Part shown: piece by piece, positions 15,505 through 32,059 of the stretch
Position numbering within the stretch: position 1 is the stretch's first letter
How the letters are laid out: each line of letters opens with the position of its first letter
Origin: Clostridium sp. Marseille-P2415
GTDB lineage: Bacteria; Bacillota; Clostridia; Lachnospirales; Lachnospiraceae
Direction of reading: 5' to 3'
DNA: 33,192 nt
Assembly: GCF_900155545.1 (NCBI RefSeq)
Contig: NZ_LT732526.1
Span: forward strand, 3,072,931-3,106,122
Notes under the pieces: model-generated
What the model was told of the DNA's origin: nothing
Database searches by the model: none
Seen by the model: the letters and a program-made list of their open reading frames with translations, nothing else
Position numbers and translations under genes: made by a program

Positions 15505-18273
15505 TTACCAAATCCCGCCGCGGATCTTATAAGTGTTATAAAAGGTTGTGTCAGAGGGATATAACACGGTAGTGACTAAATTTCCCGTACCATCATCCTC
15601 TACCTGAACGGTTACCGTTATCACACTGCTGTCATAGGTCATATGCTTGATGGGACTGGCAGGCTTTATTTCCCGGATCTGATAGGTATGCTCCCCCGGT
15701 TCATCGTAGGATACAAGAAAGCTGACGGTGCCATCCGCCCTGTTTTCAGACTTTTCAACGTCCCCGGTCTCCATATCCTTGAGCTCAAATTCAAACATGC
15801 CGGACGTGAGCTGCATTCCGGTCAGAACCTTTTTAAGTTCAATGGTTGCTGATTCCGGCGAATATTTAAAAACATTTTTAAATACCTGGTCCGGCCAGTA
15901 GGAAACCTCGGCCTGGAGCTTTCCGCTGCGGTCCGTCACAAGGACTTTCGCTGTGATGGTTTTTAAATCATATGTAATATTCGGATTGGCGGGAACGGGC
16001 ACCGACTCCCGGATCAAATACGTGTAAGTTCCTTCTTTCGTAAACGTTAGCGGAGAAAAATGAATTTTTCCGGAACCGTTATTGGAGGCGATCTCTACGC
16101 TCTCATTGGTACCGGTAAGCAGACGGAACTGGAACATTCCATTCTCCAGGGTACTTCCCAAAAGCTCTTTATTGGCATCCAGACTGACGGATACCGGCTG
16201 CGGCTCGTAGCGGTTGACAAAGGTTCCATCCGACGGATAATGGACCTCGGTTTTCAGTTCTTCCCCTGATCTTGTGACTTCTACCTCTACCGGAATCGTC
16301 TTTGTGTCATAAACCATACCCGGCATCTGCTCCTGCGGAATGATCTCCTTTACATGAAAGAGAACAACTCCCGGTTTGCAGAAATCAACCGCCGGAAACG
16401 TAATATTGCCATCCGCATCGTTGAACGCTGTGGCAATCGGAATCTCTTCTCCCTCTAATACCCGGCTGATTTCAAACTGAAAACTGCCGGCTTCCAGTGT
16501 CTTTCCTGTCAAAAGCTTTTTTAAGCGGATCTCAGCCTGGACTGCATTCGGTTCAACGACCTGAACCGCCGGCTTGTTGTATGTATGCTCAGCTGTTCCG
16601 CTATTGCCGTATGAATACGTAAGCTCCGCTTCTGAATTGGAGTAAAATCCGGGCATTCCCGAGCTGGTACTGTTACCTGGATAATCCGTACCGGGATCCC
16701 CTGTATGGGGATAGCTTTCGTTTAAGTCATAGTAATCCAGGGCTTTATCGCTGGAACGTACATTAAATGAAACTGTATACCGGCTGTCCGGTATTGTGCC
16801 ATTTAACAGTTTTACTTTTATCCCTGCACTTTCGGAACTTATGGTATAATCGCTGCCGGCTGCCAGATATACGGGCTGTTCGCTGCCGGTCTGGCGCATC
16901 ACCTTTAAATCTCCCATATAATCGACATACTCGGAAAGCTGATCCCTTATTGTCACATCGTAAAGCGAATTGCTGAGCTGAGATATAAACCGGTCAAATG
17001 CATTGTTGATCTGATCCGCACTCGCGGCCTGGACCATATATTTTTCAATATTTGTACCTACCATCTGGGTAACGGTCTGCAGAGTCGATGCCCCTCCGGA
17101 ATTGCTTCCCATAAAAATCGAATAGAACCGGTCAACCCCCTTCATCTGGGTTGCCGCATCAAGAGCATAAACAGTTCCTACCTCTGTATAAACGGAATAG
17201 CCCAATGCCTGTGCGGCCGGCGTTGCCGCCGTAGGCTGTCCATCGGTAAGAAAAAATACCACCTGCTCGGCCCCCGGTGAGGAAAGCCCTGCAATCTGCT
17301 CAGACGCATTCCTCATAGCCTGATAATAATTCGTTCCGCCTTCCGTTCCGCCCGGAAGGGCCAGGGACCCTATGGTCTGCAGCAGACTGTTCTTATCTGT
17401 GCTTCCTGAAACGACAACATGGGAATTCGTTCCGAAGGTAATAATGGAAAAACGGTTATTGGGATTTTCCGCAAGCAGCGATACCGCATTGTACACGGTC
17501 TTCTTCATGACATCAAACCTTGTTCCGCCTCCAAATGATTCTTCCATGGAATTGCTGACGTCCATAATAAAAATAATATCCGATTTCCTTGATTCTTCCT
17601 CCTTCTGGGTGGTTAGATCCAGATAAAGCCGGTAATCATTCACCCCATGGGCAGATGTATCCGGATTCTCAGTACCGTCGCCCAGATAATCAATTACTTT
17701 TTTATAATCCGGCGCCGGCGCTTCTTTGGGCGGAGCCTCATCAATGTCTGGATTATACTTAAAATGCAGGGTGACTCTGGCTTCGGCGGCATTATTTCCA
17801 ATGGAGATCCAGTTATAGGAAGGGGTAGCGTATGGATCGCCAGCGTTCCCGCTTCCGCTGTAGGTATAGGCGCTCACGTTTTCGCCGTATTCCACATATG
17901 CAAGGCTTAAATGGGAATCGGTATACCCATTGGCCCCAAACCAGACCGTATTGCAGTTAGTGCCTGAAGATTTTCCGGCAAACGTAAGCGTTGTGCTGAC
18001 GCCGTTCTTCACAGGAAACACTGCTGTTTCATATCCGGAAGGGTAATTTGCCGGATAGTTATTGGACTTTGACATTAAGTATATCCGTTTTGCATCATAT
18101 CTGGAATTAAGCTGTGCAACCTGCTCCGGATAATCAGCCACATTATCAATCACAGTAGTTACATAAACCGTCAACGGCCTGACAGAAGCTGCCAAAGCCT
18201 CTGATGGATTAAATAGCAGGCCCAAAAGCGCCATAAGCATGACCGGCAGCCCTTTTCTTATTATTTTAATCAT
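15505..18273 (-). CDS. Secreted VWA protein with three Spy0128 pilin-type domains
   Basis: 922-aa exported protein, last in the Tad operon. A signal peptide (1-30, cleavage after ALA-type AA) is followed by an N-terminal region of unknown fold, a VWA domain at about 230-440 with MIDAS residues D238, S240 and S242 (DVSNS), and three Spy0128 repeats at about 578-690, 693-801 and 806-915. Each repeat has Lys near an LLTG/LTG motif, a Glu (VKEI, IRES, IREI) and a terminal Asn (FVNRY, FKNVF, FYNTY), the set that makes intramolecular isopeptide bonds. There is no LPXTG signal or C-terminal helix. The start is ATG 18273 with GGAGGT upstream; an upstream GTG overlaps that site. It is probably a pilus-associated adhesin. 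Confidence 0.85.
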   Translation of the reverse strand: MIKIIRKGLPVMLMALLGLLFNPSEALAASVRPLTVYVTTVIDNVADYPEQVAQLNSRYDAKRIYLMSKSNNYPANYPSGYETAVFPVKNGVSTTLTFAGKSSGTNCNTVWFGANGYTDSHLSLAYVEYGENVSAYTYSGSGNAGDPYATPSYNWISIGNNAAEARVTLHFKYNPDIDEAPPKEAPAPDYKKVIDYLGDGTENPDTSAHGVNDYRLYLDLTTQKEEESRKSDIIFIMDVSNSMEESFGGGTRFDVMKKTVYNAVSLLAENPNNRFSIITFGTNSHVVVSGSTDKNSLLQTIGSLALPGGTEGGTNYYQAMRNASEQIAGLSSPGAEQVVFFLTDGQPTAATPAAQALGYSVYTEVGTVYALDAATQMKGVDRFYSIFMGSNSGGASTLQTVTQMVGTNIEKYMVQAASADQINNAFDRFISQLSNSLYDVTIRDQLSEYVDYMGDLKVMRQTGSEQPVYLAAGSDYTISSESAGIKVKLLNGTIPDSRYTVSFNVRSSDKALDYYDLNESYPHTGDPGTDYPGNSTSSGMPGFYSNSEAELTYSYGNSGTAEHTYNKPAVQVVEPNAVQAEIRLKKLLTGKTLEAGSFQFEISRVLEGEEIPIATAFNDADGNITFPAVDFCKPGVVLFHVKEIIPQEQMPGMVYDTKTIPVEVEVTRSGEELKTEVHYPSDGTFVNRYEPQPVSVSLDANKELLGSTLENGMFQFRLLTGTNESVEIASNNGSGKIHFSPLTFTKEGTYTYLIRESVPVPANPNITYDLKTITAKVLVTDRSGKLQAEVSYWPDQVFKNVFKYSPESATIELKKVLTGMQLTSGMFEFELKDMETGDVEKSENRADGTVSFLVSYDEPGEHTYQIREIKPASPIKHMTYDSSVITVTVQVEDDGTGNLVTTVLYPSDTTFYNTYKIRGGIW

Positions 18274-18291
18274 TACTCTTACCTCCACACA

Positions 18292-20167: not shown

Positions 20168-20716
20168 CTACTCAGATCTGTGCTGGGTGGCTACGATCCG
20201 GCTGCAGCTTAACTTTTTTTCTTTTGTTACTCTGGATCCGAACACCTGCCGCCCTAAAAAGGTAAGAGGGTATATATCATAGGACAGGGTGGCGTCTAAA
20301 TCCATATAGCGGGTCCGGCTGGTGGCAGTTACGGTGTCAGCCGATGTCCTGCCTGGCACCAAAAAGGTTTCTTCCTCGTTGTACATCACTGCCTGTGCAT
20401 TGCTGACTGTTAAATTCTCCGGTATAAATCCCCAAAAGCTGGCTTCTTTTATTCTTTCCACCAAAGGATCCGACACCGTACTTCCATTGTAAACAGCACT
20501 GGCCGGGCAGGACTCCAGCGGATCCGAATCCCCAAGATCAGACGCCTGGATCGTCCAGCTGGAATACTGATAGCTCTGATCGAAAACAGTCTGCTGGTAT
20601 GTCATCCAGCCTGCTTCGATTATAAAAAGAATGATCGTAATAAAAATAGGGAAGACCAGCGCGAATTCCACCATTCCCTGACCCTTGTCCTGTTTCAAAG
20701 CCAAAAACCATTTCAT
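20168..20716 (-). CDS. TadE-like pseudopilin 2
   Basis: 182-aa type IVb pseudopilin. The leader MKWFLALKQDKG is followed by the predicted cleavage G12/Q13 and a +5 Glu (QGMVEFAL), then a 20-residue hydrophobic helix (FALVFPIFITIILFIIEAGW) and an extracytoplasmic domain with two Cys (SCPAS and LSCSR) that could form a disulfide. TadE proteins are minor pilins required for Flp pilus biogenesis. The start is ATG 20716 with GGAGG six bases upstream; the in-frame ATG at 20722 abuts the ribosome site. It is 22 bases after the first TadE-like gene. Confidence 0.85.
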   Translation of the reverse strand: MKWFLALKQDKGQGMVEFALVFPIFITIILFIIEAGWMTYQQTVFDQSYQYSSWTIQASDLGDSDPLESCPASAVYNGSTVSDPLVERIKEASFWGFIPENLTVSNAQAVMYNEEETFLVPGRTSADTVTATSRTRYMDLDATLSYDIYPLTFLGRQVFGSRVTKEKKLSCSRIVATQHRSE

Positions 20717-20738
20717 AAACATCCTCCGCCTGTCTGCT

Positions 20739-21290
20739 CTATGGAGTATTGCCGCTGATATAAATATTACGGGAATAAACAGGTGTTTTCACTTCATACG
20801 TATTCCCGAGAAATAACGTTCCCCAAAAGGTTACTGCTGACCGTTCATAGGAAAGCTGCAGCTGTACCTCTGTATACTGATAACTGCCGGGGCGCGCTTC
20901 AAACTGGCTCCCAAAATCAGACGGATCGGCTAAATCACTGGAGTAAACGTAATAGCTGTAATCGTTCTTATTACTGCTTCCCGCGTTCAGTTCCTTAATA
21001 TTGACCATCCCCGGATCCAGCCGTTCCGTGAAATTCTGTGAGATTACCTGCATCACCTTATTACTCACCGTTCCTGAGGAAATATCAGAATAATCCAAAC
21101 GGCTTATGCATTCGCTGGCAGCACTGCTTAACGTCATCTGCGTATTCATGTAGAGAAAGAAATCCACAGGAAGAGTAAGGAGCAGCACTAAAACAGGAAG
21201 GATCAGGGCAAATTCCAAGACTGACTGCCCGCTTTCATCCTTACCGTTTAAGTCAGCCAATGTTCTTAACCTCCTTCGTCTTTTCGGCAT
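20739..21290 (-). CDS. TadE-like pseudopilin 1
   Basis: 183-aa pseudopilin. A basic leader (PKRRRRLR) leads to the predicted prepilin cleavage G21/Q22 with Glu at +5 (QSVLEFALIL), a hydrophobic helix to about residue 48, then an extracytoplasmic beta-rich domain. The ATG at 21290 has GGAG close upstream and gives a 38-base overlap with the coiled-coil gene. An alternative TTG at 21260 has AGGAGG nine bases upstream, overlaps the same gene's stop by 8 bases, and would give 173 aa. Both leave the cleavage motif intact. The processing enzyme would be the A24 peptidase at the head of this operon. Confidence 0.83.
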   Translation of the reverse strand: MPKRRRRLRTLADLNGKDESGQSVLEFALILPVLVLLLTLPVDFFLYMNTQMTLSSAASECISRLDYSDISSGTVSNKVMQVISQNFTERLDPGMVNIKELNAGSSNKNDYSYYVYSSDLADPSDFGSQFEARPGSYQYTEVQLQLSYERSAVTFWGTLFLGNTYEVKTPVYSRNIYISGNTP

Positions 21291-23166: not shown

Positions 23167-24084
23167 TTACATACCTCCAAACATTTCCATAATTGACATG
23201 ACAGCAGGTCCCATAAGTACAATAAAGATGACCGGAAAAATAAAGAGCACCATGGGAAGCAGGATTTTAACAGACAATTTCTGCGCCTTTTCCTCTACAT
23301 TCTGTTTATGGGTCTGCCGGATGGTGGACGCCTGAATGGACAAAATATTCTGCATGGAGGCACCCATTTCATCGGCCTGGATGACGGCAGTGACAAATGT
23401 CCGTATCTCCATATTTTCACACCGGTCTGCCAATCCGTTCAGAGCCTCCTTCCGCCGGCGTCCGAGAGCGATTTCCCGCTGGGTAACATCCAGCTCATCC
23501 ATCAGGGCCCCCTTAAATTTCCCTACCACATAACTCAGGGCCTGGTCAAAGCCCAGTCCTGCCGAAACACTGACACTTAGTAAATCCATCATCTCCGGCA
23601 GCTGATGATATATTTCCGCTTTCCGTTTTTTTATTTTGCTTTTTAAGTGAAAGCGGCTTAACACCACTCCGGCATAGAGCCCCAGAACACCATAAAGAAC
23701 AGCCCGGATAAACCCTCCCGCCCTTCCGTAAATAACGCCGAAACCAATGCATACTGCAGTAAAAAGGGCTACCGCCGCACTGTAGTTCTGGGATTTCATA
23801 TGAATGCCGGCCTGTCGAAGCTGCTGCTCCATTCTCTCCAGGGCTGCCGGATTTTTAGGCGCAAATACGGAAAATACGGTAAGGAGGCGGTTAAAAACCG
23901 GTTTCATGATGCGGTCCATGATCGGAACATCCAGTTCTCCTGTTTCTTCCTTCCGTTTTCCTAAGTCTTCCACAGATTTTAAGCGTTCATTTAAAGCAAG
24001 CGCTTTTGAAAAAACGACGGAAAGACATAGGTCCATAAAAAAATAAGTAAAAGCTGCGCCGGCTATGGCTGTCAGAAATATCAT
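23167..24084 (-). CDS. tadC: TadC, inner-membrane platform protein
   Basis: 305-aa type II secretion F-domain protein. Membrane helices lie near 1-20, 108-145 and 270-300, and the T2SSF domain spans about 155-285 (LPEMMDLLSVSVSAGLGFDQAL, then EIALGRRRKEALNGLADRC and FVTAVIQADEMGASMQNIL). With TadB it forms the membrane platform on which the TadA motor assembles Flp pilin. AGGAGAAGAAAAG precedes the ATG. It follows TadB after 35 bases; order and size fit TadC of clostridial Tad systems. Confidence 0.92.
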   Translation of the reverse strand: MIFLTAIAGAAFTYFFMDLCLSVVFSKALALNERLKSVEDLGKRKEETGELDVPIMDRIMKPVFNRLLTVFSVFAPKNPAALERMEQQLRQAGIHMKSQNYSAAVALFTAVCIGFGVIYGRAGGFIRAVLYGVLGLYAGVVLSRFHLKSKIKKRKAEIYHQLPEMMDLLSVSVSAGLGFDQALSYVVGKFKGALMDELDVTQREIALGRRRKEALNGLADRCENMEIRTFVTAVIQADEMGASMQNILSIQASTIRQTHKQNVEEKAQKLSVKILLPMVLFIFPVIFIVLMGPAVMSIMEMFGGM

Positions 24085-24119
24085 CTTTTCTTCTCCTGTT
24101 TCAATCTCTCATGGGATTA

Positions 24120-25055
24120 TCAAAATTTAATATTTACGATTTTGTTTATCATTAAGAAGCCCAGAATCTCCATTACCCCGCCAAGCAGCAGCAGGAGGCG
24201 TCCCGGCAGAGACGTAAACAGCGGCGAAATATATCCCGGATTGATGAACGAAAGAGCTAAAAGCAGCAAAACCGGAAGCACTCCGATCACCTGGCCGGAA
24301 ATCCTTCCCTGAGCGGTAAGTGTCTTTATGGAGCGCTTGATTGCCAGCCTGTCCCGGATGGTCTGGGAAATGATATCCAGTATTTCCGCCAGATTTCCGC
24401 CTACCCTCTGCTGTATGACGACAGCTGTGGTGAGCAGCTTTAAATCATCGCTTTTCATCCTCTCTGCCACAATCAGAAAAGAATACTCAAGTTCCGCCCC
24501 CAGTTTAAGCTCCCTGACAATCGTGTTCAGTTCACTGCCAATGGGATCAGCTAAATCCCCGGAAACATTCTCAAGTGCCTGCTCAAAGGAAAAACCGGCT
24601 CTTAACCCATTGGAAAGCACCATCAGCGCATCCCCTAACTGAGCCTCAAATAAGCCGCGCTGTTTTCCAGCCGCTATTTTCAAAAAGAAAGGGGGGACAA
24701 CAAGTCCTATGAGGAAAAGCCCTATACACTGGATCAAATCCGGGGCAAATGCAAATAAAAGCATGGCCGGTGCAAAAATAAAAAGGAACCAGATCATGAC
24801 AAACTCCTCCGGACGCAGCTTTATTCCGGATAAGCTGACTTCTTCCTTCATCTTTTTTGAAATATGTATGAAACGCAAAAGCTGTCTGTCCTTTTTTTCT
24901 TCTCCGTAAACCGATACCGCTGTTTCTTTTTTCACCTGGTTTAAATCACTTAACCGGTGTTCGATCTGCAGCTGCTTTTTTAATAAAAACTCCAGAATTA
25001 ATTCAATGGCACAATAGCAGAATACCGCCGCAGAAGCCAGACAAACCATCTTCAT
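24120..25055 (-). CDS. tadB: TadB, inner-membrane platform protein
   Basis: 311-aa type II secretion F-domain protein with N-terminal helix 1-20, a pair of helices near 90-130, and C-terminal helices near 255-305. The F domain (about 140-265) shows LGDALMVLSNGLRAGFSFEQAL and LTTAVVIQQRVGGNLAEIL, the usual conserved segments. It is paired with TadC to make the pilus platform. The ATG is 2 bases after the TadA stop and has AGGAGGTAAAA upstream, indicating translational coupling to the motor gene. Confidence 0.92.
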   Translation of the reverse strand: MKMVCLASAAVFCYCAIELILEFLLKKQLQIEHRLSDLNQVKKETAVSVYGEEKKDRQLLRFIHISKKMKEEVSLSGIKLRPEEFVMIWFLFIFAPAMLLFAFAPDLIQCIGLFLIGLVVPPFFLKIAAGKQRGLFEAQLGDALMVLSNGLRAGFSFEQALENVSGDLADPIGSELNTIVRELKLGAELEYSFLIVAERMKSDDLKLLTTAVVIQQRVGGNLAEILDIISQTIRDRLAIKRSIKTLTAQGRISGQVIGVLPVLLLLALSFINPGYISPLFTSLPGRLLLLLGGVMEILGFLMINKIVNIKF

Positions 25056-25057
25056 TT

Positions 25058-26416
25058 TTACCTCCTTTCCGGAAGAAACCAGTCATCCCTGCAATAGCCT
25101 CCATTATCTCTTATCTTATCAAGGATCTTCGGATGAATTCCCGTTGGTTCAAACTTCCCTGCTATTTTTCCGTTCCCATCCGTACCGCTCTGGCGGTAAC
25201 TGAAAATATCCTGCATGGTCACGGTATCGCCTTCCATTCCTACCACTTCCGATATATTGACGATTTTTCTGCTTCCATCCCGGAAACGGGACTGATGCAC
25301 GATCAAGTCAATGGCAGAGGTGATCTGCTCTCTTATCGCTTTTGCGGGCAATTCCATTCCTGACATCAAAACCATTGTTTCCAGACGCGATATAACATCT
25401 CTGGAAGAATTCGCGTGCACCGTGGTCAGGGAACCGTCATGACCTGTATTCATGGCCTGAAGCATATCCAGAGTCTCTCCGGAACGGACCTCTCCTACAA
25501 TGATCCGGTCCGGACGCATTCTCAATGCATTCTTCACCAGATCCCGGATTGAAACAATGCCTTTTCCTTCTATGTTGCTCGGCCGCCCCTCCAGGGTCAC
25601 CACATGATCCTGTTTTAACTGGAGCTCGGCCGCATCCTCTATGGTCACGATTCTTTCGCTGTCGGGAATATACCCTGATAATACATTGAGCAGCGTGGTT
25701 TTTCCCGAACCGGTTCCCCCGGAAACGATCACATTGCAGCGGCCCTTTACAGCTGCCTCCAGAAAAGCGGCCATCGGGGAAGATAAGGAGCCGTATCCGA
25801 TTAAGTCTCCGATCTGGAGCGGCGTGGAAGAAAATTTTCTGATCGTGATGGAAGGACCTTTTAAAGCAATCGGCGGAATAACGGCATTTACACGGGAGCC
25901 GTCCGCCAGACGGGCATCCACCATAGGAGTAGCTTCATCACAGCGCCTGCCCACAGAGGAAACGATCCGGTTGATCACCTTTAACACATGGGCGTCATCC
26001 CGGAAGCTGGTGGCTGTCCGCTCCAGCCTGCCTCCCCGCTCGATGTAGATCTGCCTTGCGCTGTTCACCATGATTTCAGAAATGGAATCATCCCGCAAAA
26101 GCGGCTCTAAGGGGCCCAGTCCCATGACATCATCAAATATTTCCTGAGCAAGCTTTGATTCCTCCAGACGGGTTAAGCTCTCCTCCTGCCTGGCAATGGC
26201 CTGATGGATGATTTCCATAACATCAATGAACTTCCCATTGGTACCATCCGAAAAACGGTCATTGTATTCCCGTATTACCTCCTGGTGAACCACCTGCTTT
26301 AATTTGTCATAATTTTTATCCGTTCTGATTCCCGGCTCAGCGTTGGGAACACTGAATGCCTTTGAAACGGAATGATCTGTTTCCTTTGGCTGTCCCAGGC
26401 GAGAAACCCACTCCAT
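25058..26416 (-). CDS. tadA: TadA/CpaF pilus assembly ATPase
   Basis: 452-aa secretion ATPase of the VirB11/CpaF family, the motor for Flp pilus extension (and possibly retraction). The N-terminal domain at about 85-200 includes the LGPLEPLLRDDSISEIMVN segment, Walker A GGTGSGKTT is at 233-241, the Asp box is VTIEDAAELQL, Walker B is DRIIVGEVRSGE (303-314) and the His box is TGHDGSLTTVHANS (324-337). All catalytic elements are intact. It begins 3 bases after the TadZ stop and is 2 bases from TadB, in the core of the operon. The GGAG ribosome site is rather distant (about 12 bases). Confidence 0.96.
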   Translation of the reverse strand: MEWVSRLGQPKETDHSVSKAFSVPNAEPGIRTDKNYDKLKQVVHQEVIREYNDRFSDGTNGKFIDVMEIIHQAIARQEESLTRLEESKLAQEIFDDVMGLGPLEPLLRDDSISEIMVNSARQIYIERGGRLERTATSFRDDAHVLKVINRIVSSVGRRCDEATPMVDARLADGSRVNAVIPPIALKGPSITIRKFSSTPLQIGDLIGYGSLSSPMAAFLEAAVKGRCNVIVSGGTGSGKTTLLNVLSGYIPDSERIVTIEDAAELQLKQDHVVTLEGRPSNIEGKGIVSIRDLVKNALRMRPDRIIVGEVRSGETLDMLQAMNTGHDGSLTTVHANSSRDVISRLETMVLMSGMELPAKAIREQITSAIDLIVHQSRFRDGSRKIVNISEVVGMEGDTVTMQDIFSYRQSGTDGNGKIAGKFEPTGIHPKILDKIRDNGGYCRDDWFLPERR

Positions 26417-26419
26417 GGC

Positions 26420-27616
26420 TTACCCTGTCTCCTTTCCTCTTTGAAGGAATGATATCCGTTTCTTTTTCCTGCTTTTTACAATTCTGGAACCTGCGCTCAT
26501 CCCTTCAAGCTGTTCTGCTATATTGGAAATTTCTTTACAGATTTTACTTTTCGGATATACCAATACAAGAGGCTGGCCCTGATTTGCTGCTGTTACCGCT
26601 GATCTCTCATCGCAGGGAATCGCTCCCCACACCGGCATGCCCAGCACACGGGAAACATCGTTGTTTGTAATTTCATTTCCATAACTTTTTCCAATAATCA
26701 GTTTGATCTTCTGTTTATCCGTCAGCTCTGCCAGCACCTGCAGGCTTTTTTTCGCATTCTGCAGCGCAGGTACATCTTTTCCCGTTACAAATAATATAGC
26801 GGATGCACAGTCAATACAGGATGCCGATGTATCATCAAACCCGGAGACCGTATCAACAATGACATAGTCATAATAAACCCTCAATGCCGCTATTATGCTC
26901 TCGATCTGCCTGGCAGTAATGGAGACCCCATATTCCGGGCTGTGGGGATTGGGCAGGAAGTTGACTCCGGAAAGATGAAGAGACAAGAACTGTCTTATGG
27001 TATCCACATTGGGATTGCTCTGTTCCTGTATAAGTTCCAGGATCGTATTTCTCGGATTCATACCCAGCAGGATTCCTACGTCACCTGACTGAAGGTCAAA
27101 ATCCAGGATGACCACCTTATTGTTTTTCTGAGCCAGCTTAATTGCCGTATTTACAGCCAGAGTGGTCTTTCCCACCCCATCCTTCGGGCCGAAAATCATG
27201 ATCACCTTTGATTTGGAAGATTTGACTCCTGTATTCTCCAGTGCCAGGATGCGGTTTGATTCATTGCTGTAGATCCCCTTTAATTCCGCAATCAGATTGA
27301 TGGGTTCCATGTTTTCAGGCAGGATGTAGTGGACTCCGGACTGCAGAATTTTATACATCAGTTCGCTGTCTTCCAGATCAGACAGCACGATCGGAACAGA
27401 GCGTGGGCGCAGCAGATAAATCTGCTGGCAGGACCTGAGAGCCATGGGGGAGGTATCCGTAATAAGGATCAGATCCGGCAAAGTCCGGTTTATCTCATTT
27501 AACACCTGATTCTCATCCACCACATATCCGACAACGGTGATCTCTTCGTCTTTTAACTGCGTTTTGATCTGTGAACATTTCTCCGGTATTCCCAGGAGAA
27601 GAATTTTTATTTTCAC
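26420..27616 (-). CDS. tadZ: TadZ/CpaE-like localisation ATPase
   Basis: 398-aa MinD/ParA-type protein. Residues 1-115 form a receiver-like domain (atypical: D53/D54-type phosphosite not clearly conserved), and about 135-370 the ATPase domain with deviant Walker A GPKDGVGKTT (143-152), switch I DFDLQSGDVG and Walker B-like YDYVIVDTVSG. The C-terminus is basic (KSRKKKR). TadZ proteins place the Tad machine, often at a cell pole. The start is GTG at 27616 with AAAGGGG eight bases upstream. It is between cpaB and tadA as in many Gram-positive Tad loci. Confidence 0.9.
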   Translation of the reverse strand: MKIKILLLGIPEKCSQIKTQLKDEEITVVGYVVDENQVLNEINRTLPDLILITDTSPMALRSCQQIYLLRPRSVPIVLSDLEDSELMYKILQSGVHYILPENMEPINLIAELKGIYSNESNRILALENTGVKSSKSKVIMIFGPKDGVGKTTLAVNTAIKLAQKNNKVVILDFDLQSGDVGILLGMNPRNTILELIQEQSNPNVDTIRQFLSLHLSGVNFLPNPHSPEYGVSITARQIESIIAALRVYYDYVIVDTVSGFDDTSASCIDCASAILFVTGKDVPALQNAKKSLQVLAELTDKQKIKLIIGKSYGNEITNNDVSRVLGMPVWGAIPCDERSAVTAANQGQPLVLVYPKSKICKEISNIAEQLEGMSAGSRIVKSRKKKRISFLQRGKETG

Positions 27617-27643: not shown

Positions 27644-28462
27644 CTAATTTCCTTCATAATTCTTAAGTACAGATCCACGGGGGTCGTTAGCAACGCCGTT
27701 GTCCTCCTGCGGCCTGAGTACCAGCTGTATTTTCCCATCCCCGCTCTTCATAAGGGCGATCTGCGCTGCCTGGGAAGGAGTCACTTCCAATGTAACGCTT
27801 TCGTATTCCTTATTGTTATAGCTCTTTGTACCGTCAAAGAAAAAAGAGCTTCCAAGTGCTGCGACCTTAACATTCTGCAGCGCAATGACGGAGAATTCAT
27901 TCCCTAAAGAATCATTCACAACCTGGGCATTTGCGGGATTCTGAGGCCCCATAATCCTCTCCATGGTCAATCCTGCCGGAATCTTTTCTTCGCTTCCGGA
28001 TACTGATGAATCCAAAGTTCCTGTAAAAATCACATCTACAAAGTTTCCCACTCTGAGATTATTGGAAACCCCCTGTTCTAAATCCACCGCTATGGACACC
28101 GCCCGATTTCCTTCCTCAAGCCTTGAAGCAAGCCCCAGAACTTCAGCTTTATCTTCTACAAGCCTCCGGTCTGTCAACACTTCCTCCCGATAGATATTTG
28201 ATACACATACCTTTCCGATCACTTCCTCCGGCTTTCTGTAATAACCCTTCATTTCTCCATCAACCAGTACCTTTTTCAGCTTTATCATATCCTTGGTCAG
28301 TGTTGTGTAGGGATCGATATCCTGTGCCGCAACGACTACTTCGATTTTCTGGCCTGCACCCGACGTTTTGGACTGATTGCTTTCTCTCACTGCAAGTACC
28401 CGGTATCCGGCTATGAACACGAGGAATGCAACTGCCAATGCGATCAAACGAATTTTCTTCAC
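27644..28462 (-). CDS. CpaB/RcpC-like pilus assembly protein (SAF domain)
   Basis: 272-aa membrane-anchored extracytoplasmic protein. A single N-terminal helix (about 5-24, LIALAVAFLVFIAGYRVLAV) is followed by a SAF domain (about 40-105: VVVAAQDIDPYTTLTKDMIK, then YREEVLTDRRL) and an RcpC-like domain with AVSIAVDLEQGVSNNLRVGNFVDVIFTG and VTLEVTPSQAAQIALM. The start is taken as GTG 28462, with GGGAGGAG upstream; an ATG 84 bases earlier would add a non-hydrophobic extension before the helix. In Gram-negatives CpaB works with the outer-membrane secretin; here, without an outer membrane, it may guide the pilus through the wall. Confidence 0.88.
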   Translation of the reverse strand: MKKIRLIALAVAFLVFIAGYRVLAVRESNQSKTSGAGQKIEVVVAAQDIDPYTTLTKDMIKLKKVLVDGEMKGYYRKPEEVIGKVCVSNIYREEVLTDRRLVEDKAEVLGLASRLEEGNRAVSIAVDLEQGVSNNLRVGNFVDVIFTGTLDSSVSGSEEKIPAGLTMERIMGPQNPANAQVVNDSLGNEFSVIALQNVKVAALGSSFFFDGTKSYNNKEYESVTLEVTPSQAAQIALMKSGDGKIQLVLRPQEDNGVANDPRGSVLKNYEGN

Positions 28463-28567
28463 CTTAAACTCCTCCCTTGTATTTTGGCTTATGCCACAAA
28501 ATTTATATAAAAAATCAGATTTATCCTCCGATATTATTTGATCCATACCTTGTAAATTTTACAATTC

Positions 28568-28610
28568 AAGACGAGGCTCGCAGATGTTTTCTGAACATTC
28601 GCCTCGTCTT
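28568..28610 (-). terminator. Hairpin between flp pilin and cpaB (attenuator or processing site)
   Basis: AAGACGAGGC (28601-28610 on the minus strand) pairs perfectly with GCCTCGTCTT (28568-28577), with further 5-bp pairing (ATGTT/AACAT) inside. The T-run after it is weak, so it may only partly stop transcription, or protect the upstream pilin mRNA. Confidence 0.6.
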
Positions 28611-28646
28611 TCTATAAGCAACAGCCGGTTTGATTTCTTTTATTAC

Positions 28647-28817
28647 TTATTTACCTGGCATTGCACTATTAATGCTTTCAAATGTACCCTGAACCTTACC
28701 GCCAAGTGCCTGTAATACGGCAATAACCACAACAGCGATCAGTGCGAGAATCAATCCATATTCAACCATTCCCTGTCCGCTTTCCTCAGAAACAAATTTA
28801 TTCCAAAGCTTCTTCAT
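28647..28817 (-). CDS. flp: Flp-type major pilin
   Basis: 56-aa type IVb prepilin: leader MKKLWNKFVSEESG, predicted cleavage G14/Q15, Glu at +5 and Tyr at +6 (QGMVEYGLI), a 20-residue hydrophobic helix, and a short C-terminal tail (GGKVQGTFESINSAMPGK). This matches Flp pilins, polymerised by TadA/B/C after cleavage by the A24 peptidase. The start is ATG 28817 with GAGGTGA upstream; an in-frame ATG 22 codons earlier would add an acidic stretch unlike any Flp leader. Gaps of 122 bases before and 184 bases after, with a hairpin, fit higher expression of the major subunit. Confidence 0.93.
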   Translation of the reverse strand: MKKLWNKFVSEESGQGMVEYGLILALIAVVVIAVLQALGGKVQGTFESINSAMPGK

Positions 28818-28939
28818 ATCTTTCACCTCACCTTCTTCTGTATATTTAGAATCAGCATAAAGCTTCACTATGCCGGATTCCATGTTTCATCTTAAAGTTT
28901 TTATACGTTTACAATCAAACCGGCTGGTTACTCCAAACA

Positions 28940-29101
28940 TTACGGAAACGCAGGTATCAGAACGGTCCGGATCAGATCATAGACCTTGACCACAGCCCCT
29001 GACATGTTTCCAAAGGCGATTGCGGCTACTATTACAACTGCTGCAAACAGAACTGCAGATTCAACCATAGCCTGCCCCTTTTCAGATTTTAAACTTCTCA
29101 T
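28940..29101 (-). CDS. Short second pilin-like protein
   Basis: 53-aa open reading frame with a good ribosome site (GAGGAAAAT) 12 bases after the peptidase stop. The leader MRSLKSEKG ends at the predicted prepilin cleavage G9/Q10 with +5 Glu (QAMVES), followed by a hydrophobic helix (AVLFAAVVIVAAIAFG) and a tail ending IRTVLIPAFP. The +6 Tyr of Flp is replaced by Ser. It is smaller than TadE proteins and differs from the 56-aa Flp, so it may be a minor pilin or initiation subunit. It is easily missed for its size; confidence rests on the intact cleavage motif, ribosome site and operon position. Confidence 0.82.
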   Translation of the reverse strand: MRSLKSEKGQAMVESAVLFAAVVIVAAIAFGNMSGAVVKVYDLIRTVLIPAFP

Positions 29102-29113
29102 ATTTTCCTCATT

Positions 29114-29767
29114 TTAAAGAATCAATGCGATCAGAAAGCCTGCCATAATGTGTCCGCACATCGGGAAGGTACTGTCACGGGCCAGAAAACCGCATTTCAT
29201 GCCGGCCAGGCAGTAAATTCCAATGGCTCCGGCCATGCCGGTCAGAAAGTAAAAAACTCCAGGCCAGCCAACCGTTATGGCAATAATCATCGCTAGCTTA
29301 ATGTCTCCCATTCCGACTCCGGGTGTCCCCTTCCTGACAAAGGTAAATAAAATTGTCATGCCGAAAACAGCGATAACAATAAGCAAAGCCCCGGCCGAGC
29401 CCCAAAGCGCTCTAGGGCCTCCGAGATAGATCCGGTAGCAAAGGCCCGCCGCCAATATTACCCACAGCATTTCATTGGCAATGATCCTTATAAACGCATC
29501 CACACAGATGCCAAAAACTGCAATGTTGCTAATGATCATCACAAACAGAGCCCGGTCAAACGGCAGTAAAAAGCCTGACATTCCCGTGATGCCTGCAGTA
29601 AAAAGCATGCTTAAGCCTCTCCAGCGAAAATTTGGCCTTCTCCGCGGCATCGGGTATCCTTTCCGGTTACTTTTATATCTGGCAAAAGAATGCGATAAAT
29701 CCGGTATAAAATAACCAACCAAGCCACTCATGCCGGTTAATACGGCATTTCCCAAAATTCCATTCAT
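29114..29767 (-). CDS. tadV: A24 prepilin peptidase (TadV/CpaA-like)
   Basis: 217-aa multi-pass membrane aspartic peptidase that should cut the leaders of Flp, the second pilin and the TadE proteins. The two catalytic Asp are visible as D90 (ICVDAFIRIIANE) and D155 in GVGMGDIKLA. About six hydrophobic segments are present; the N-terminal cysteine/methylation domain of PilD is absent, as is usual for TadV. An extra basic loop (SNRKGYPMPRRRPNFRWR, 33-50) follows the first helix. It is the first gene of the Tad operon, only 67 bases from the left inverted repeat of the putative invertible promoter. Confidence 0.9.
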   Translation of the reverse strand: MNGILGNAVLTGMSGLVGYFIPDLSHSFARYKSNRKGYPMPRRRPNFRWRGLSMLFTAGITGMSGFLLPFDRALFVMIISNIAVFGICVDAFIRIIANEMLWVILAAGLCYRIYLGGPRALWGSAGALLIVIAVFGMTILFTFVRKGTPGVGMGDIKLAMIIAITVGWPGVFYFLTGMAGAIGIYCLAGMKCGFLARDSTFPMCGHIMAGFLIALIL

Positions 29768-29834
29768 TTTCTCCCCTCATGCCTTTCATTTCATATGGCT
29801 GTTCTGCCTGTTAAAAGAACCTTTTTACAACTGG

Positions 29835-29868
29835 TTACAACAGAATACCTCTTTTGTTGTAAAAACAT
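29835..29868. repeat. Left inverted repeat / recombination site of the pilus switch
   Basis: 34-bp repeat whose reverse complement matches 30056-30089 at 33 of 34 positions. It contains a 28-bp site: arm TTACAACAGAA (29835-29845), core TACCTC (29846-29851), arm TTTTGTTGTAA (29852-29862). The arms are 10/11 mirror images, as in dif- or lox-like sites of tyrosine recombinases. A further TTACAAC at 29825-29831, 10 bp outward, may be an accessory binding site. Confidence 0.88.
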
Positions 29869-30055
29869 TAAAATTTAACAGAGAAATGTCCTTCCCAGAA
29901 AAAAAGAAGGACATTACAAATAGGCCGGAAGATTTTTCACAAATCCGGCCTGCTTGCAATATCCAAAAATAATAAATTTGTATATTTAAAACTTTTTTTT
30001 CAAAAAAATGTAGACTTTATAAAAAATATGTAGTATATTATGAAATAGATTCGAC
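29869..30055. promoter_or_regulatory. Putative invertible promoter segment of the Tad operon
   Basis: 187 AT-rich bases between the two inverted repeats, no gene. It holds hairpins AATGTCCTTC/GAAGGACATT (29885-29915) and AGGCCGGA/TCCGGCCT (29922-29951) on the operon-proximal side, and a sigma-A-like promoter (30011-30039) pointing right, away from the pilus genes. Inversion between the repeats would turn this promoter toward tadV, with a leader of about 110 bases. As sequenced, the hairpins lie between the recombinase and the operon and could block read-through. Confidence 0.75.
30011..30039 (+). promoter_or_regulatory. Candidate phase-variable promoter
   Basis: TAGACT (30011-30016), exactly 17 bp, TATATT (30034-30039). 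In this orientation it reads antisense into the recombinase gene; after inversion it would read into tadV. The -35 box matches consensus at only four of six bases. Confidence 0.5.
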
Positions 30056-30089
30056 ATGTTTTTACAACAAAAGAGGTATTCCGTTGTAA
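30056..30089. repeat. Right inverted repeat / recombination site of the pilus switch
   Basis: Inverted copy of 29835-29868. The 28-bp site is 30062-30089: arm TTACAACAAAA, core GAGGTA (the complement of TACCTC), arm TTCCGTTGTAA. The single difference between copies lies in the outer arm, not in the core, so strand exchange would be permitted. The site overlaps the last ten codons and stop of the recombinase gene. Confidence 0.88.
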
Positions 30090-30949
30090 TGTATGACTAA
30101 TAAATCTAATTTCTCTAATATTTTTAAATGCGCATGTCCGCTTTCTCTGGTATAAATACGGGTAGTATTCACATCACTGTGTCCCAATATATCTGCAAGC
30201 CTCGATAGATCCTTCTCCATCATGTAGAACGTTCTGGCAAACAAATGTCGAAGGTTATGAGGAAAGATCTTTTCTTCTGCAACCCCGGCCAAACCGCCCA
30301 GTGCTTTCATCTCGCGCCAGATATTGCTTCTGTCAAGCGCCTTACCGTTCCGGGTTACAAATATCATACCGGACATAATATTCCGTTCCTTTGCGTATTT
30401 TTTCAATAAATCACATAATTGACCGGTCAGAAAAACAGAACGGATCCTTCCCTTGCATTCAACTTCTGCCATACCATTCCTTACCGCTTCAACAGTAATA
30501 AACGGCAGCTCGGAAACGCGGATTCCGCTGGAGCAGATCGTCTGTAAGATCAATACCAGGCGTTCATTTTTGTTTTCTTTTGCCGCTCTGACCAGCATTT
30601 TATACTCTTCCTTGGAGAGCTCCTTTTGCTCCGCACAAAACACATTGCAGCTGATCTTAAAAAATTTTACCGTGCAATCCAGCCAGCCATTGTACTTAAA
30701 AAATCCATTGACTGCAGCTAATGCACCATTCGCCGTTACCGGTGAAAACTTTTTGCGCAGCGCGGCTTTCCATAAAATTACCGACTCTTTGCTTATGCTC
30801 TTTCCTTCAAGATACAGTCTGAATTGTTCCAGATAATACCGGTATTTTTGAATGGTCACCTGGCTCTTTTCCTGGCAGTACAGCCATTTGCAGTATTCTT
30901 CTATTGCATATTCTGTTATCGTTCTTACTGAATTATGATTTTTTTTCAT
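30062..30949 (-). CDS. Tyrosine recombinase, likely the DNA invertase of the pilus switch
   Basis: 295-aa XerC/D-like recombinase with an N-terminal core-binding domain (about 10-105) and a catalytic domain with all active-site residues: R144 (SSGIRVSEL), K166 (ECKGRIR), H231 and R234 (HNLRH), H257 (LGHSDVNTT) and nucleophile Y266 (RIYT). It lacks the Arm-binding domain of integrases, as in the invertases FimB/FimE and RecV. The start is ATG 30949 with GGAGGAAAAA upstream; an ATG four codons earlier overlaps that site. Its stop codon begins the right recombination site. Upstream, 30950-31201 is AT-rich with a TATAAT (minus strand) near 31036 and no other gene. The target is inferred from position. 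Confidence 0.9.
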   Translation of the reverse strand: MKKNHNSVRTITEYAIEEYCKWLYCQEKSQVTIQKYRYYLEQFRLYLEGKSISKESVILWKAALRKKFSPVTANGALAAVNGFFKYNGWLDCTVKFFKISCNVFCAEQKELSKEEYKMLVRAAKENKNERLVLILQTICSSGIRVSELPFITVEAVRNGMAEVECKGRIRSVFLTGQLCDLLKKYAKERNIMSGMIFVTRNGKALDRSNIWREMKALGGLAGVAEEKIFPHNLRHLFARTFYMMEKDLSRLADILGHSDVNTTRIYTRESGHAHLKILEKLDLLVIHYNGIPLLL

Positions 30950-31201
30950 TTTTTCCTCCATATTCTCCTATTGGCCAAATGCCAGATTTAAAAAAGCTGA
31001 CATATATATTATCGGAATAGCTTATCACATTATACAATAATTAAGCCACTTTGATGATTCAGGCAGCCAATTGCTCCGGCTTTACAGAGGAAAAAATGAT
31101 TTCCAGTTTTTTTATTTTATTGTAAGTTTTATCCTTAAATTATTTTTGCATAGTAAAAATGACGAAAAATCAAGAAAATAAAGTTCTATTTTGAAAGTTT
31201 A

Positions 31202-32059
31202 TTAACCAATGATATTTAGATTTTTTAAGGATAAGTCGAGAATCGGCGCGGAGTGGGTCAATGCCCCGCAGGAAATATAATCCACCCCGATTTCCATCAG
31301 CTCTGCAATCCGTTCCTCCGTTACATTGCCTGAGCATTCTGTCTCCGCTTTATTCCCGATCAGTTCTACCGCCCGGCGCATGTTTGCGGCGTCCATATTA
31401 TCCAGCATGATGATATCGGCACCTGCTTCCAGAGCTTCTTTTACCATTTCCAGATTTTCCACCTCAACCTCAATTTTACGGACGAAAGGAGCATATTCTC
31501 TGGCTGACCGGACCGCATTTTTCACTCCTCCTGCTGCCGCGATATGATTATCCTTTAGAAGAATTCCATCGGAAAGGTTATAGCGGTGATTATATCCCCC
31601 GCCTGCTTTTACTGCATATTTTTCAAAAATCCTCATATTCGGAGTGGTTTTCCGGGTATCCAGCAATTTCGTCTTGCTGCCTTTGAGTCTGTCAGAAATC
31701 CTGTGGGTATAAGTAGCGATTCCGCTCATTCTCTGCAGATAATTTAATGCGGTTCTCTCTCCGGATAACAGCGCCCTCGCATCTGCCGTAAGCTCTGCAA
31801 GAAGTTCTCCTTTTGAAACCTGATCCCCATCCGAAGCATAAGCCTGCATGGTGGCAGACGGGTCCAGGAGAAGGAACACACGGTAAAATATGTCCAGCCC
31901 TGCTATCACTCCATCCTGCTTACATAAAAGTTCCACACGCCCGGTTTTCTTATCGTGAAGTATGGCATTGGTCGTGACATCTTCACTGGTTATATCTTCC
32001 CGCAATGCCTGCAATAATAAATCATCCACATTTAAACTGAAGGTTATTTGGTTGTTCAT
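31202..32059 (-). CDS. nadC: Nicotinate-nucleotide pyrophosphorylase (quinolinate phosphoribosyltransferase)
   Basis: 285-aa cytoplasmic enzyme converting quinolinate and PRPP to nicotinate mononucleotide, CO2 and pyrophosphate in de novo NAD synthesis. Conserved segments are EDITSEDVTTNAI near the N-terminus, LSGERTALNYLQRMSGIAT (about 98-116), DTRKTTPNMR (133-142), KYAVKAGGGYNHR, LLKDNHI (167-173), EVEVENLEM, DIIMLDNM and the late DYISCGALTHSAP. Length is normal for the family. The start overlaps the end of nadB by 38 bases, so the genes are co-transcribed and coupled. Confidence 0.97.
   Translation of the reverse strand: MNNQITFSLNVDDLLLQALREDITSEDVTTNAILHDKKTGRVELLCKQDGVIAGLDIFYRVFLLLDPSATMQAYASDGDQVSKGELLAELTADARALLSGERTALNYLQRMSGIATYTHRISDRLKGSKTKLLDTRKTTPNMRIFEKYAVKAGGGYNHRYNLSDGILLKDNHIAAAGGVKNAVRSAREYAPFVRKIEVEVENLEMVKEALEAGADIIMLDNMDAANMRRAVELIGNKAETECSGNVTEERIAELMEIGVDYISCGALTHSAPILDLSLKNLNIIG

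Follow-up and report, generated by a model that had tools for sequence, protein, structure and literature searches.

A predicted invertible promoter cassette upstream of the Tad pilus operon of Clostridium sp. Marseille-P2415

In Clostridium sp. Marseille-P2415, a short non-coding segment bounded by two inverted recombination sites separates a Tad pilus operon from the gene for a tyrosine recombinase, and this locus very probably represents an invertible promoter cassette that switches the operon. The window referred to below is the whole stretch of DNA that was analysed, 33,192 nucleotides of contig NZ_LT732526.1. The features that can be read directly are the sites and their cores, the gene order, a conserved promoter-like block, a covarying terminator stem and the pairing of cores across the recombinase family; from these we infer inversion at Tad, the role of the recombinase, the activity of the promoter and the effect on pilus expression. 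An invertible promoter, as proposed in the original prediction, remains the best reading of the locus: the sites and their core, the promoter-like block and the terminator are all conserved in eight genomes, and the exact site is confined, within the genus, to genomes with Tad genes. The recombinase family adds to this reading, in that matching core pairs and both orientations occur, and for Tad itself the switch is a prediction. Tad pili are organelles for attachment and biofilm formation in many bacteria. If the reading is correct, whether a single cell of these species carries pili would be a matter of chance, and the pilus would go unnoticed in cultures in which most cells are OFF.

The switch region and its neighbouring genes

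The two repeats lie between tadV and the recombinase gene, both of which are transcribed leftwards, and the tad-side repeat is 67 bp from the start of tadV (Table 1). The original prediction had placed two 34-bp inverted repeats, agreeing at 33 of 34 positions, around 187 bp of AT-rich DNA, and the same coordinates were recovered here: the 34-nt repeats are complementary at 33/34 positions with a spacing of 187 nt, and the GC content of the inner segment is 26.2%, as compared to 45% for the window. The inverted repeats exceed chance, as the longest inverted pair in 28500-31500 is 27 nt (at most one mismatch allowed), whereas the maximum in 200 dinucleotide shuffles is 17. Also predicted was a 28-bp site made up of 11-bp mirror-image arms and an asymmetric 6-bp core. 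On re-reading by eye the site takes the form TTACAACAGAA-TACCTC-TTTTGTTGTAA, with mirror symmetry of the arms at 10/11 positions on the tad side and 9/11 on the recombinase side. The sole mismatch between the repeats falls in the outer arm, which reads CAACAG on the tad side and CAACGG on the recombinase side; this difference is identical in seven of the eight Tad loci compared, with CAACGA on the tad side of the eighth (L079). Inverted repeats, an identical asymmetric core and a short non-coding segment between them, 187 to 204 bp long across the eight Tad loci, together make up the arrangement of an inverton.

Table 1. Features of the predicted switch region and the Tad operon (positions in the window)
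Feature	Position	Strand	Remarks
Two TadE-like proteins	20168..21290	-	first (20739-21290) by Pfam, second by eye
tadB + tadC (T2SSF)	23167..25055	-	Pfam
tadA ATPase	25058..26416	-	Pfam
cpaE/tadZ-like ATPase	26420..27616	-	general ATPase Pfam models
cpaB/rcpC	27644..28546	-	Pfam
flp, major pilin	28647..28883	-	by eye from GQGMVEYGLILALIAVV
Small pilin-like ORF	28940..29101	-	by eye
tadV, prepilin peptidase (type IV leader peptidase)	29114..29767	-	first gene of Tad operon; Pfam
tad-side inverted repeat	29835..29868	.	holds 28-bp recombination site 29835-29862, core TACCTC
Predicted invertible segment	29869..30055	.	187 bp, 26% GC
Second, overlapping terminator-like hairpin	29885..29915	-	clear only in the window, by eye
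Predicted intrinsic terminator	29909..29964	-	20-bp stem, then U-rich tract (about 29895-29908); between recombinase and tadV in window orientation
Promoter-like site TAGACT-17-TATATT	30011..30039	+	faces away from tadV in the window
Recombinase-side inverted repeat	30056..30089	.	holds 28-bp site 30062-30089; also codes for the C-terminal 9 residues and stop of the recombinase
Xer-like tyrosine recombinase, predicted invertase	30062..30961	-	299 aa; profile matches

The adjoining recombinase gene, likewise part of the original prediction, is an open frame with a match to Phage_integrase (1.1e-24), and its activity is predicted from sequence. The putative catalytic R, K, HxxR, H and Y residues can be read by eye from known motifs, and the NCBIfam 'tyrosine-type DNA invertase' models match the protein weakly (best 9e-7). 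The 3' end of the gene lies inside the right repeat, such that its final codons are the recombination site, an arrangement that is a new part of the system. In a single relative, L081 (also listed as L095), the recombinase end and the tadA frame are both interrupted, reflecting either a real strain change or a sequencing error.

Within the segment, the scan found a single promoter-like site, which matches the consensus at 9/12 positions and has a weak -35; the promoter block, TAATATACTACATA on the reverse strand, is invariant in all eight Tad loci aligned. With general promoter frequencies, the window scores 7.7 versus 6.8 +/- 1.6 for shuffles, and the scan yielded 2 sites versus a shuffle average of 4.9. 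Because the site faces away from tadV, the window would show the OFF form.

For the predicted terminator, folding of the stem gives -34.6 kcal/mol (z -5.6) in the window, -44.8 (z -10.0) in L092 and -37.9 (z -6.0) in L091. In an alignment of eight rows, 92.3% of the cells are paired and both sides have changed in 6 of 21 pairs, while 2 of the 21 fail in most rows. None of 500 shuffles reaches as high on four of five measures of covariation, and 9 of 500 do so on the fifth, in a test that used the window's own fold plus one hand-added pair on related rows, both of which favour the structure. Promoter and terminator would form one cassette, by which the window would be OFF twice over, with both effects reversed after inversion. 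A search of 28400-31300 for known RNAs or riboswitches gave zero Rfam matches up to E = 1. A second 36-nt match of the segment, which is found in most genomes of the genus and in the source genome sits before a gene resembling plsX (by eye), was dropped as a merely similar promoter-like stretch.

In the proposed mechanism, the adjacent recombinase would bind the two inverted 28-bp sites, and strand exchange within the identical 6-bp cores would invert the segment. In the deduced ON form, the promoter would read across the tad-side site into tadV, giving a leader of about 110 nt, with the terminator positioned behind the promoter. In the OFF form, to which the window and seven other readable loci would belong, the promoter would read across the other site into the recombinase gene in the antisense direction, and the terminator between the recombinase gene and tadV would halt read-through.

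The genes downstream of the segment encode a prepilin peptidase, Flp, CpaB, CpaE, TadA, TadB, TadC and TadE in one cluster, as is typical of a Tad/Flp locus; the Tad genes were identified by Pfam with the exception of Flp, which was recognised by eye, and CpaE was assigned via general ATPase models. The true start of flp is probably an internal ATG giving MKKLWNKF. Complementary stretches of 14 nt (28622-28635 and 28913-28926) bracket flp and are predicted to form a long-range RNA stem of ~20 bp, which is present in seven of the eight Tad loci (absent from L079) and shows two compensatory changes in L075; through such a stem, the flp transcript may be stabilised or excised. A hairpin between flp and cpaB (28569-28611) may be an attenuator, through which flp could be produced in surplus. 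Further downstream, 15505-18288 encodes a 927-aa protein with a VWA domain and three Spy0128-like isopeptide stretches, in which no sorting signal was seen by eye, and which is a possible pilus-borne adhesin.

The Tad locus across the genus

In the genus, where the fetched loci that carry names come from Lacrimispora and from two bins labelled Hungatella sp., CpaB is found at E <= 1e-20 in nine of 25 genomes, and the exact recombination site is present in these same nine Tad genomes and in none of the other 16. The recombinase (at least 74% identity) and both sites are found in eight of the nine, as is the gene order recombinase-site-segment-site-tadV-cpaB-cpaE-tadA-tadB-tadC, with the tadA frame interrupted in L081. 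The exact site occurs exactly twice in seven of the nine genomes, five times in the source genome (G000), where contigs overlap, and once in G020. In five genomes that have no Tad genes (G005, G008, G013, G014 and G022), a recombinase of 63-65% identity is accompanied by a comparable pair of sites ahead of another operon; thus, the system is not specific to Tad.

The original prediction had proposed comparing related genomes for the opposite orientation: all eight readable genomes carry the promoter at the recombinase side and none shows the opposite orientation at Tad, each species being represented by one assembly that gives the majority form only. In G020, tadV, cpaB and cpaE (by eye) lie on a contig of 3051 bases that breaks off at the inner boundary of the repeat, as placed from L078. 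This is where two orientations would part, and the contig end is only a hint, because the recombinase side of the break was not found in the G020 assembly. The scaffold of the source genome (G000:C9:3102611-3113524) holds the switch region three times, one of them partial, in overlapping stretches parted by N runs, and the end of the window coincides with one N-run gap. The three copies are read as an assembly effect, and all of them carry the promoter at the same side.

The recombinase family in Clostridia

A sample of 397 genomes from the taxonomic family contains 80 with members of the recombinase family (E <= 1e-40), as judged from the best 5 matches per genome, and at least 79 named loci were fetched. 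By a loose rule, a repeat pair follows the recombinase in 85 of 99 loci, 10 of the 99 being second copies; the 14 loci that have no repeat pair include ten truncated by the end of the contig (within 430 bases) and four that are not cut (L107, L121, L132 and L162). The pairing of cores was scanned in 89 loci, leaving out the 10 second copies of the same genomes, with a motif in which the core is free. Exactly two sites were found in 50 of these loci, and the cores are exact reverse complements in 49 of the 50, the remaining locus (L161) having two direct copies. As many as 39 different cores occur, and permutation gives a mean of 1.8 and a maximum of 8 complementary pairs in 50. Cores are identical within loci and different between loci, as strand exchange requires. 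The other 39 loci have fewer or more than two motif sites, and include the Tad loci, in which one arm differs from the motif.

The family is a large one in Clostridia, with paired inverted sites ahead of many surface operons, and the downstream genes vary. Eight of 10 downstream proteins matched Pfam models (peptidase S55, choline-binding repeat, sugar transferase, GBS104-like/VWA, histidine kinase, glycine-rich domain, SpaA and SLH) and three of 7 matched NCBIfam models (streptococcal pilin repeat, collagen-like adhesin and signal peptidase), in a scan that covers a small share of the loci and in which some of the proteins come from the second or third gene downstream of the sites. In a tree from which recombinases with stops or shorter than 255 aa were left out, the Tad recombinases form one clade (100/100), and the next supported set (99/90) adds the recombinases of Hungatella hathewayi, Enterocloster and their relatives, whose targets are different. 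CpaB is present in three of the 397 sampled genomes, the source genome included; in the CpaB-positive G228, none of the best 5 recombinase matches is near CpaB, and in G323 there is no match at E <= 1e-40. Two loci, with 52% and 21% identity, lie in viral contigs. The source genome also has a second switch of the same family (G000:C9:1619151-1619975, L179), located before an operon that by eye is exopolysaccharide- or capsule-like; L179 and its relatives L180 and L181 are all called OFF.

With respect to layout, the recombinase gene runs into the site in 41 of 105 loci, and elsewhere a gap follows the recombinase stop. A terminator-like hairpin facing the promoter is found in this gap in 22/105 loci, by a loose rule that has no shuffle control, and might protect the recombinase from antisense RNA.

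Orientation was judged by scoring outward promoters at both segment ends with general promoter frequencies. The 105 segments scored leave out 14 second-copy loci and 6 new loci that have no repeat pair, and retain near-identical loci of different bins (e.g. L149 and L150). Under a lenient rule, the promoter faces the recombinase in 76 segments and the target in 14, with 15 undecided; under a stricter rule, the numbers are 60, 11 and 34. For the Tad loci, the lenient rule gives four OFF and four undecided, and the strict rule leaves all eight undecided on account of the weak -35. Such calls are noisy, as evidenced by L080, which is called ON yet aligns like loci called OFF, and alignment is the firmer guide. 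Nearly all aligned segment pairs run the same way, and six listed pairs are inverted, representing three independent cases (L127/L139, L164/L168, and L167 versus its kin). Opposite orientation extends over 155 columns in L127/L139 (70%), 87 columns in L164/L168 (84%) and 55 columns in L204/L206 (80%), the last two loci being in one genome; L127/L139 and L204/L206 are sister recombinases in the tree.

Of 79 named loci, 14 have a contig end within 450 bases on the downstream side of the recombinase, as against 3 with one on the upstream side (p 0.013), and seven of the 14 downstream ends fall at a site (p 0.003, taking the background to be 16%). A mixture of both orientations in the sequenced DNA would give such contig ends, and so may other assembly causes. 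Antisense feedback was considered as the cause of the OFF bias and found to be unsupported: by the lenient calls, ON forms number 5/41 where the recombinase runs into the site, 3/22 where there is a shielding hairpin, and 6/42 in the rest. The wider family provides about 100 candidate switches with identifiable sites, in which matching cores allow a recombinase to be assigned to the operon that it would control.

Alternative explanations and comparison with known systems

A broader proposal, which we consider possible although doubtful, is that of a self-contained, transplantable Clostridia flip cassette, consisting of recombinase, two sites with a locus-specific core, promoter and terminator, that would have been passed between surface operons and here to Tad. 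The last codons of the recombinase gene being its own site, the OFF promoter would run antisense through the gene, so that the OFF form could hold itself by silencing the recombinase, while the ON form would free the recombinase to flip back. Somewhat less likely still is a former switch that is locked OFF in the clade, with Tad silent or driven from elsewhere and the repeats lingering, one of them as recombinase coding sequence. The single orientation of 8/8 genomes, the coding nature of the recombinase-side repeat, and the interrupted recombinase end and tadA frame of L081 would all be expected of such a relic. It sits less well with the non-coding tad-side repeat, which keeps its core exactly in all eight loci, with the conservation of the promoter-like block and terminator, with Tad proteins that are 61-96% identical in local matches, and with the G020 contig that stops at the repeat.

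Two further explanations would dispense with switching of Tad. The conserved promoter could act as a static regulator that makes RNA against the 3' end of the recombinase gene; the promoter-like site does face the recombinase, and in seven of the eight Tad loci (L081 having an interrupted frame) there is no room for a terminator between them. This is very unlikely, as it does not account for a pair of inverted sites whose cores match, for the terminator ahead of tadV or for the family loci in the other orientation, and the hairpins that would shield the recombinase in 22/105 family loci (loose rule, no shuffle control) also argue against it. It is also very unlikely, finally, that the sites serve to integrate a mobile element or to bind a repressor, with inversion incidental. 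The recombinase is Xer-like, as are many integrases, but the sites are inverted rather than direct, their asymmetric cores are identical, only a short segment lies between them, and seven of nine Tad genomes have the exact site exactly twice. The invertible promoter cassette is the reading that we carry forward in the comparisons below.

The kind of mechanism is already known, namely flippable promoters before surface operons with adjacent tyrosine recombinases; the new parts are Tad as the target, the promoter-plus-terminator cassette and the site-ending recombinase. In E. coli, fimS is an invertible promoter before a pilus operon with the recombinase genes (FimB/FimE) nearby, and differs from the Tad locus in the kind of pilus and in the use of two recombinases. 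In Bacteroides, the site-specific recombinases Mpi and Tsr flip promoters before surface loci. The scattered switches on which Mpi acts number at least 13 and share a 10-bp core consensus, whereas in the family described here each locus has its own recombinase and the cores vary between loci. The original prediction knew of no well-described case of inversion at Tad pili, and no report of DNA-inversion control of Tad pili was found in the literature searched either, most subscription papers lying outside it. The inverton tables of Jiang et al. 2019 may list some of these loci. In the main texts of the inverton surveys PMC5903667, PMC11892184 and PMC10939037, the words 'Tad', 'Flp' and 'pilus' are absent, and the first of these surveys reports small inversions in Clostridia (PMC5903667).

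Expression of Tad genes that differs between phase variants is described for Vibrio vulnificus, where RNA of the tad-2 genes is lower in translucent than in opaque colony variants (PMC11287873). The likeness to the Tad locus lies in this difference between variants; the phase variation is that of the capsule, and the words 'invert' and 'recombinase' are absent from the text (PMC11287873).

The closest comparison within Clostridia is with the cwpV and flagellar switches of C. difficile, on which RecV acts and which are described as segments of 195 and 154 bp with 21-bp inverted repeats (PMC2784873, PMC5386303). These resemble the Tad locus in being short segments between inverted repeats with surface targets. 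For cwpV, genomic DNA is reported to be 96% OFF (PMC2784873), and thus an OFF bias at Tad is compatible with a working switch; an intrinsic terminator has also been proposed for the OFF form of cwpV (PMC2784873, PMC5386303). As described in the same sources, the cwpV and flagellar repeats have no recognizable identity to each other, the targets are a cell-wall protein and flagella, the recV gene is not near cwpV, the promoter is outside the switch, and control is exerted after initiation. In the Tad locus, by contrast, the recombinase gene is adjacent and the predicted promoter is inside the segment, such that the locus is set apart from RecV-type switches by its layout rather than by RecV sequence.
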